Origin: an uncultured Cryomorphaceae bacterium
GTDB lineage: Bacteria; Bacteroidota; Bacteroidia; Flavobacteriales; Schleiferiaceae
Assembly (NCBI GenBank): GCA_913060465.1
Contig: CAJXTR010000003.1
Span: forward strand, 1 to 46,511
Reading direction: 5' to 3'
Length of the DNA: 46,511 bases
The stretch's first letter is position 1. Every line of letters begins with the position of its first letter. This document shows, piece by piece, positions 14,206 to 43,881 of the stretch. The notes below the pieces were generated by a model that had not been told where the DNA came from, made no database searches, and was given only the letters and a program-made list of their open reading frames with translations. Made by a program: the position numbers and the translations under genes.

Positions 14206-14232
14206 AAAAGGCGCCCCGAGGGGCGCCTTTTT
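14205..14232. terminator. Bidirectional intrinsic terminator
   Basis: A GC-rich stem (14210-14216 with 14221-14227, plus a possible inner pair) is extended by A5 (14205-14209) against T5 (14228-14232). It therefore works as hairpin plus U-tract on both strands. It overlaps the last stop codon region of the DOMON gene and lies 8 bases from the stop of the convergent transporter gene, serving both. Confidence 0.9.
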
Positions 14233-43161: not shown

Positions 43162-43193
43162 AAAAGCCCGGCGCAACGCGCCGGGCTTTTTTT
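43162..43193. terminator. Strong intrinsic terminator after valS operon, bidirectional
   Basis: A 13-bp perfect stem (43162-43174 with 43178-43190) with a 3-base loop is followed by TTT (43191-43193). The A4 on the left arm gives a U-tract for transcripts coming from the opposite side, so it can also stop the minus-strand hotdog gene transcript. Confidence 0.92.
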
Positions 43194-43279: not shown

Positions 43280-43654
43280 CTATTTCCTTGTAATGGAAAC
43301 AGTATATACTGCTTTACATACGCGTTTGGCAGGTTGACCTTTTTTAAGTTTGCTTACATACACTTTTAAGTCTACGCTTTTCTTATCGCGCTGAACGAAA
43401 CAGCTCTCAATCGTGAGTGCGTCGCCTAACGCTGCATTGGCATACATCTTCACTTGCATATTCAGGAGCTGTTCCTTCCAGGTGTTATCCAATTTCAATG
43501 CCGAAATACGTTCATGTCTCACTTTGTTGAGATGATCCATGAGTGACCACAACGTAAGGTTGCCCATCGCGTCCACCATTGATGGGGCTACAACTTCCTG
43601 TTTCCGAGTTTTAATAGGACCAGATTTGCGTACGACGTTGATGAAGTTTTTCAT
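43280..43654 (-). CDS. Hotdog-fold protein, thioesterase-like
   Basis: This 124-residue protein resembles a single hotdog domain of the acyl-CoA thioesterase (4HBT/PaaI-like) group. PSMVDAMGNLTLWSLMDHLNKVRHERISAL fits the hotdog central helix region, and LLNMQVKMYANAALGDALTIESCFVQRDKKSVDLKVYVSKLKKGQ fits the following sheet strands. The usual catalytic Asp or Glu is not obvious to me, so activity is uncertain. The start ATG 43654 lies only 11 bases beyond the T-tract of a strong intrinsic terminator on the same strand. Expression therefore needs read-through of that terminator, unless an unseen promoter lies inside it. Confidence 0.68.
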   Translation of the reverse strand: MKNFINVVRKSGPIKTRKQEVVAPSMVDAMGNLTLWSLMDHLNKVRHERISALKLDNTWKEQLLNMQVKMYANAALGDALTIESCFVQRDKKSVDLKVYVSKLKKGQPAKRVCKAVYTVSITRK

Positions 43655-43665
43655 GGTAACTGGGT

Positions 43666-43699
43666 AAAAAAAAGAGCGCCTTCTTGTGAAGGCGCTCTT
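43666..43699 (-). terminator. Strong intrinsic terminator upstream of the hotdog gene (candidate attenuator)
   Basis: Minus strand: a 12-bp perfect stem (43699-43688 with 43683-43672) with a 4-base loop, running into a T8 tract (43673-43666). It lies 30 bases after the small ORF's stop and 11 bases before the hotdog gene start. It may end the O-antigen ligase transcript, end a small gene, or act as a regulated terminator (attenuator) for the hotdog gene. Confidence 0.9.
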
Positions 43700-43728
43700 A
43701 GCTATATTCTAATATGGGTTATTCTCTT

Positions 43729-43821
43729 TTATCTTATGCCTTCACTTTGTTTCATAACAACCCATTTCCACACGTAAATGCGGTTCATATTATTGGCTGT
43801 ATGATTAAATAGCGTTTGCAT
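43729..43821 (-). CDS. Candidate small ORF / leader peptide, 30 codons
   Basis: Reading the minus strand from ATG 43821 to TAA 43729 gives 30 residues beginning MQTLFNHTANN and ending MNRIYVWKWVVMKQSEGIR. An internal ATG at 43788 gives only the last 19 residues and would suit the promoter-like site better. It is rich in aromatic and hydrophobic residues, with two Trp codons two apart (W18, W20). There is no known family. The context, between a promoter-like element and a strong terminator, suggests a leader peptide or microprotein. An ORF this short can occur by chance. Confidence 0.4.
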   Translation of the reverse strand: MQTLFNHTANNMNRIYVWKWVVMKQSEGIR

Positions 43822-43825
43822 AATG

Positions 43826-43855
43826 TAAATGTATGATTTTTAGATGAAAATCAAA
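43826..43855 (-). promoter_or_regulatory. Promoter-like site ahead of the small ORF
   Basis: Minus strand: TTTG (43855-43852), an 18-base spacer and TACATTTA (43833-43826). The latter differs from TAnnTTTG only at the last base. Transcription would start near 43820, close to the first ATG of the small ORF and about 30 bases before its second ATG (43788). Confidence 0.45.
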
Positions 43856-43881
43856 GTATTTGTCAAAAAATTATTTTTCGT

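Follow-up and report, generated by a model that had tools for sequence, protein, structure and literature searches.

A conserved leader, probably a ribosome-mediated transcription attenuator, precedes a divergent hotdog-fold gene in a family of Flavobacteriales

The hotdog gene and its leader

The window, as we call the whole 46,511-nt stretch of DNA analysed here, comes from an uncultured Cryomorphaceae bacterium that GTDB places in the family Schleiferiaceae (Flavobacteriales). Towards its end lies a gene for a hotdog-fold protein, which converges with a DUF4287/DUF5655 gene and is preceded by a structured leader (Table 1). The features that an initial annotation of this DNA had described there, namely a promoter-like TTTG-N18-TACATTTA, a mini-ORF, a terminator with a T8 tract and the hotdog ATG, all lie on the minus strand where it had placed them. 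Both of the pairings that it had drawn also exist. The first (43765-43759 with 43720-43714) extends to 10 pairs, one of them G-U (43765-43756 with 43723-43714; hereafter P2), and the second, between the 3' end of the mini-ORF and the 5' side of the terminator, is a perfect 8-bp duplex. The whole leader has a folding z-score of -5.2, equalled by none of 200 shuffles, an excess that we take to reflect mostly the terminator.

Table 1. Positions of the leader, the hotdog gene and their elements in the window
Feature	Position	Strand	Remarks
Promoter -33-like element, TTTG	43852..43855	-	N18 gap to the -7-like element
Promoter -7-like element, TACATTTA	43826..43833	-	Ends 4 nt 5' of the mini-ORF ATG
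Leader mini-ORF, 30 codons, peptide MQTLFNHTANNMNRIYVWKWVVMKQSEGIR	43729..43821	-	ATG at 43821; alternative start at 43788
Trp codon W18 (UGG), proposed control codon	43768..43770	-	Conserved in the window's genus
Trp codon W20	43762..43764	-	Unique to the window within the listed genus leaders
Small hairpin P1 (CCGCA/UGUGG)	43768..43783	-	Contains the W18 codon; RNAalifold structure, genus leader model R1
P2 5' strand, AUGGGUUGUU	43756..43765	-	3' of the conserved Trp codon; 10 pairs, p = 0.027 in the window
P2 3' strand, AAUAACCCAU	43714..43723	-	Partner of the P2 5' strand
Antiterminator 5' strand, GUGAAGGC	43738..43745	-	Within the mini-ORF 3' end; invariant in the genus alignment
Antiterminator 3' strand, GCCUUCAC	43686..43693	-	Terminator 5' arm and loop bases
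Intrinsic terminator	43666..43699	-	Perfect 12-bp hairpin (43699-43672) and T8 ending at 43666; -20.8 kcal/mol
Hotdog-fold protein gene, 124 aa	43280..43654	-	ATG at 43654, 11 nt past the terminator; apparently a single-gene unit
Terminator between the convergent hotdog and DUF4287/DUF5655 genes	43162..43190		Called on the plus strand; action on the minus strand inferred from the inverted repeat

Pfam gave the hotdog label below its cut-off only (4HBT_2, E 0.043), and a search of PDB sequences with the hotdog family profile gave no meaningful match. An AlphaFold2 model built from the window protein and 14 relatives adopts a hotdog fold (mean pLDDT 89.8, pTM 0.80) and matches solved hotdog thioesterases (Foldseek E 8.1e-7 to 1s5u; VIA Z 10.5, rmsd 3.7 and 110 aligned to 1lo9), which backs the label that the gene had first been given. 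The model thus suggests the same fold as that of 4HBT/YbgC-type hotdog acyl-CoA thioesterases, from which the protein differs in scoring under the Pfam cut-off and in its candidate catalytic position: Asp28, placed at 4HBT Asp17 by the aligned ranges, has an Asn counterpart in L020 and L021 and none in several genera. Since Asp28 is not kept across the family, the enzymatic activity of the protein is uncertain. Between genera the protein has diverged strongly, its identity to the first sequence of alignment A4 falling as low as 13-25%, and the logic of the leader persists.

A search of 100 genomes found relatives of the hotdog gene in 27, namely that of the window, 20 of the 24 others of its genus, and six of other genera of the family. 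A broader profile detected the gene in 45 of 88 family genomes, representing 13 of 19 genera, and at the level of the order in 39 of 395 genomes (38 in the window's family and one in another family). An earlier profile run on a phylum sample of 296 genomes returned two, the window itself and a weak match to a 4HBT-like protein (L071), which was set aside as no such leader was seen upstream of it by eye; no relative was found in the viral contigs searched. The genes around the hotdog gene vary by lineage while the leader stays with it, and include an O-antigen-ligase-like gene with valS, or place the gene near rplI or near rplT (neighbours named by eye and by Pfam search). One genome of the window's genus (G011) carries two near-identical copies of gene and leader on two contigs (C8 and C25; L017 and L028), possibly an assembly duplicate.

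We analysed 32 leaders, nine from the window's genus (of 22 genus loci fetched) and 23 others, which span 14 lineages (13 genera and one lineage of another family). This set excludes L062, where the start of the contig truncates the leader, and also L067 and several nearly identical loci of the genus. When a leader offered more than one ORF, one was chosen by hand, preferring an ATG start and a stop near the terminator; of the two ATG ORFs of L059, the Trp-containing one was taken. The terminators of L063 and L064, both with weak T tracts, were obtained with a looser T-tract rule and set by hand, respectively. A model of the genus leader (R1) gave 21 strong matches in the 25 genomes of the genus (E up to 3.2e-22), all of them before the hotdog gene. 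Its weaker matches (E 1.5e-5 to 0.09) include several on the reverse strand of hotdog leaders, a leader truncated where its contig stops (G014), and others that lie elsewhere; the best of the latter (G010, E 8.6e-4) resembled, by eye, the tail of an unrelated gene and the terminator that follows it, and was set aside.

The promoter-like element was scored against TAnnTTTG, which we take to be the consensus behind the -7-like element. At least five of six positions match in 29 of the 32 leaders, 3-22 nt before the candidate mini-ORF ATG, and the mean number of matches is 5.19 in leaders vs 4.35 in shuffles. The element ends just 4-9 nt before the mini-ORF start in 19 of the 32, so that many mini-ORFs may be translated from nearly leaderless RNA.

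An alternative pairing kept while its sequence changes

The stop codon of the mini-ORF lies 20-37 nt upstream of an intrinsic terminator in the 32 leaders, and the 3' part of the mini-ORF pairs with the terminator 5' arm. The ORF-borne strand of this antiterminator, GUGAAGGC in the window's genus, differs in other genera yet still pairs, as in GGGAAGCACCUC, GGAGAAGCA, GGGGUGCC and UUGGGGCU. In the window alone, dinucleotide shuffling of the ORF end gives the pairing p = 0.008. With one representative per lineage (n = 14), ORF ends paired with their own terminator arms at -16.85 kcal/mol vs -10.44 kcal/mol with foreign ones, a result that none of 100,000 permutations of partners equalled. The representatives were chosen after the single p-values were known, and two sets were run; the second gave -16.91 kcal/mol own vs -10.03 kcal/mol foreign, and again no permutation was as good. 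For the 14 representatives, the combined Fisher p is 1.5e-10, and a control region 60 nt farther upstream paired at -5.2. Pairing between the antiterminator strand and the terminator arm is therefore kept despite sequence change.

The signal is uneven when leaders are taken one at a time. An arm's own ORF end was the best of 14 partners for seven of the 14 arms (eight in the second set), with a worst rank of 8 (L022). Singly, the pairing reaches p <= 0.05 in 19 of the 32 leaders and in nine of the 14 representatives (eight in the second set); it stays above 0.05 in 13 leaders, including L002, L069 and L108, and the representatives of g18, g14, g7, g5 and f2 do not reach this level. As a further comparison, other terminators in the fetched DNA, a set of 70 that includes at least three leader copies, paired at a mean of -9.3, vs -16.2 for leader terminators (n = 37). 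A pairing of -15 or better occurs at seven of these 70 vs 25 of the 37, and a short ATG ORF at a leader-like distance precedes eight of the 70, three of them being unlisted leader copies.

One might propose instead that the leader is a small RNA, or an independent short transcript ending at the terminator, with the hotdog gene read by chance read-through and the ORF incidental. A promoter-like element of its own, a strong terminator and the finding of strong leader-model matches at the hotdog gene only would suit such a transcript. It would leave unexplained why the 32 leaders share the ORF, the position of its stop and its antiterminator end although their sequences have changed, and why the leader stays with the hotdog gene in differing neighbourhoods, and we consider it very unlikely.

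The first stem of the initial annotation, P2, has a narrower basis. Besides the window (L001), it is convincing in part of the genus and in one further leader (10 pairs in L007, p = 0.010; 11 in L024, p = 0.003); in several genus members p is 0.1-0.5, and g15, g9 and L057 give no signal. Taken together, 177 of 50,000 permutations did as well and the Fisher p is 0.022. With lineage signals weak or absent outside part of the genus and L024, P2 is not supported as a general element.

The Trp codon and the position of the ribosome

On sequence grounds, we judge it probable that the leader before the hotdog gene is a ribosome-mediated transcription attenuator, as first suggested for the window: 14 lineages share the short ORF, the antiterminator at its end and the terminator although the sequences differ, and 30 of the 32 leaders have a Trp codon upstream of the antiterminator strand. 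The exceptions are L070, which has no Trp codon, and L104, where the sole Trp follows the strand; the Trp of L059, L063, L064 and L108 sits some 43-72 nt away from it. Summed over lineage averages, a Trp 3-30 nt before the strand occurs in 9.4 of the 14 lineages, vs 2.0 expected from nucleotide shuffles. In L002, L010 and L018 the best duplex fell on another site, which produced negative gaps, and against GUGAAGGC their Trp is upstream; L018, where the strand was not located, entered the enrichment count as lacking Trp. L027 and L108 were clipped at the 420-nt window used for leaders, and Trp 17 of L108 was read from its longer ORF.

All 15 aligned leaders of the window's genus have UGG as codon 18, while codons 2-17 drift without third-position bias, which indicates that the genus keeps the codon and not the peptide. 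In both the window and L018, one-base changes after the Trp shift the frame, the stop staying near the antiterminator strand. Synonymous-only change, which the initial annotation had suggested looking for in the ORF, is thus not what the peptide as a whole displays. Of the two Trp codons that the annotation had singled out, W18 is kept in the genus but W20 is private to the window, and a two-Trp signature is not general.

The UGG could in principle be kept for an RNA hairpin, P1 or P2, rather than for Trp, as it sits in the small hairpin P1 in the genus and, by eye, in g8 leaders too. We find this very improbable: the 5' side of P1 opposite the codon varies in the genus and UGG does not, and Trp persists in lineages where no such hairpin is seen by eye (for instance g4, g9, g15 and g16).

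The conserved codon also recalls E. coli tnaC, a short leader with one essential Trp, arrest at the stop codon with fixed spacing and Rho-dependent termination. A ligand-induced arrest peptide of this type, in which a Trp-bearing nascent peptide stalls the ribosome on a small molecule, would agree with the Trp that recurs, by eye, after an Asn/Cys-rich stretch. Here, in contrast, the terminator is intrinsic, the residues after the Trp and its distance to the stop vary widely, the frame changes within a genus, and the distance of the Trp from the start varies too. With no fixed spacing found, an arrest peptide seems to us highly improbable.

Trp is not the only residue enriched before the antiterminator strand. 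Met is present there in 10.7 of 14 lineages (2.9 expected), Asn in 12.1 (5.5 expected), His in 6.7 (2.8 expected) and Cys in 6.8 (3.9 expected); Glu (0) and Asp (0.3) hardly occur there. Trp-specific sensing by the leader is likely from these sequences, and we grade it only as likely because Met, Asn, Cys and His are enriched too.

In the mechanism that we propose, transcription would begin just before the mini-ORF and a translating ribosome would sit on the nascent RNA. A ribosome running freely to the end of the ORF would cover its 3' part and prevent it from pairing with the terminator 5' arm, the terminator would form, and RNA polymerase would stop before the hotdog gene (OFF). A ribosome held at or before the Trp codon, by uncharged tRNA-Trp or by slow translation generally, would leave the 3' part of the ORF bare; this would act as an antiterminator by pairing with the terminator 5' arm, and transcription would continue into the hotdog gene (ON).

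We modelled the footprint of the ribosome on RNA made up to the terminator loop, with about -17 to +12 nt covered around the A site; this replaced an overly strict version in which everything upstream of the ribosome was hidden. The modelled antiterminator stays with the ribosome at Trp and shrinks as the ribosome moves on; 18 of the 32 leaders show the contrast in full, the antiterminator being formed when the ribosome is at Trp and down to half or less when it is at the stop. This behaviour suggests that translation to the stop would turn the gene off and hesitation would turn it on. In the absence of a ribosome, the model gives the antiterminator at least five expected pairs in 29 of the 32 leaders (not in L063, L064 or L104), so that the untranslated default would be ON and control need not be Trp-specific.

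For each leader we called a boundary, the last ribosome position that spares the antiterminator. Trp lies before it in at least one member of all 13 lineages with a defined boundary (L070 has none, and in L027 it was called just before the Trp), and its distance to the boundary is shorter than that of permuted codons (p = 0.0125). Met is nearer still (p = 0.003), Gly (0.006) and Cys (0.047) are also near, and Asn (0.31) and His (0.65) give no signal in this comparison with permuted codons.

Amino-acid supply in the hosts and relation to known leaders

Among the 88 genomes of the family, some of which are incomplete, TrpB reaches its curated cut-off in one, and TrpS, which served as a detection control, does so in 80. 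Weak TrpB matches (E <= 0.001) occur in 61 of the 88, two of them (G025 and G037) at about 150 bits, and we take these to be other enzymes of TrpB's fold. None of 16 genomes has TrpE over the cut-off; the one near-full-length match is in G027, the genome that also has the TrpB. HisD is over its cut-off in eight of the 88, and MetH has matches in all 20 genomes tested, 18 of them over the cut-off. In many of the genomes tested, MetH appears as two adjacent open frames. Judging from their genes, most of these bacteria appear to rely on an external supply of Trp and His. As recognisable Trp synthesis genes are missing, the switch is better read as an amino-acid starvation signal in an auxotroph than as feedback on synthesis, and we consider it more likely that it would report starvation, through slow translation of the leader.

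A starvation switch in natural auxotrophs for Trp, and mostly also for His, is our tentative but quite plausible reading of the physiology. The speed of leader translation at Trp and other scarce residues would control an orphan, fast-evolving hotdog protein, which would be a new kind of starvation effector, and in some genera a second Trp-containing mini-ORF overlapping the start of the gene would add a translational layer. It is also possible, though we hold it with more doubt, that the leader is a general sensor of slow or blocked translation, in which any delay (scarce amino acids, ribosome-targeting inhibitors, no initiation) frees the antiterminator and turns the gene on, Trp being the scarcest of several control residues. 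The enrichment of Met, Trp, Asn, His and Cys and the depletion of Glu and Asp before the antiterminator strand point this way, as do the antiterminator predicted to form without a ribosome in 29 of the 32 leaders, the Asn, Cys, Met or His seen by eye near the boundary in lineages without a nearby Trp, and the scarcity of HisD. However, a purely general sensor needs no fixed codon, and UGG alone is invariant among codons 2-18 in the genus; nor does auxotrophy explain the enrichment of Met, as MetH was matched in every genome tested.

Attenuation is known chiefly as a feedback control of amino-acid synthesis. The leader shares with the attenuator of the E. coli trp operon (trpL) a leader ORF with one or more Trp codons, a choice between antiterminator and terminator that would be set by the ribosome, and a terminator shortly before the gene. 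It differs in having mostly a single Trp codon near the control point, an antiterminator strand inside the ORF 3' end, and predicted Trp auxotrophs as hosts; downstream lies a lone hotdog gene instead of genes for Trp synthesis or transport. The predicted default also differs, since an untranslated E. coli trp leader terminates whereas the untranslated RNA is here predicted to be antiterminated.

In the Bacteroidetes, an RNA motif called Bacteroid-trp has been linked to trp genes. Weinberg et al. (2010; PMC2864571) give this motif (Rfam RF01692) as a candidate cis-regulatory RNA of this group, a likeness to the present leader, from which it differs in the downstream gene. RF01692 had no match up to E = 1 in 13 loci. 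Rfam at gathering score found one tRNA in the window and no match at the leader; at E up to 1, the 13 loci gave 13 matches, all below gathering score and to unrelated families. These map to the hotdog gene's 3' end or past it, and none falls on a leader. In the open-licence literature searched, no description of this leader was found. It is, in our assessment, real and conserved and probably an attenuator, new in its target gene, in the physiology of its hosts and in its predicted default state, and not in principle.

The architecture of attenuation persists here, with turnover of its sequence, where gene content says that the amino acid cannot be made, and the gene that would be attenuated has no known link to that amino acid. 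If our reading is right, starvation for scarce amino acids in this Flavobacteriales family would become directly testable with a reporter, and the leader would offer both a handle on an unnamed hotdog family and a comparative case of attenuation in Bacteroidota.

In genera g8 and g13 (L023, L025, L027, L057, L058 and L059), the stretch from the terminator to the hotdog gene holds a second mini-ORF. This ORF contains Trp, its UGA overlaps the hotdog AUG, and in four of the six leaders it ends in PPLL (partly judged by eye). L108 also has a second mini-ORF, without Trp and not overlapping the hotdog gene. A lookalike of the second Trp mini-ORF near position 14209 of the window was dropped, being out of frame within the end of a coding ORF. 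In the six g8 and g13 leaders, the overlap of UGA and AUG suggests that translation of the hotdog gene may be coupled to that of the second mini-ORF.
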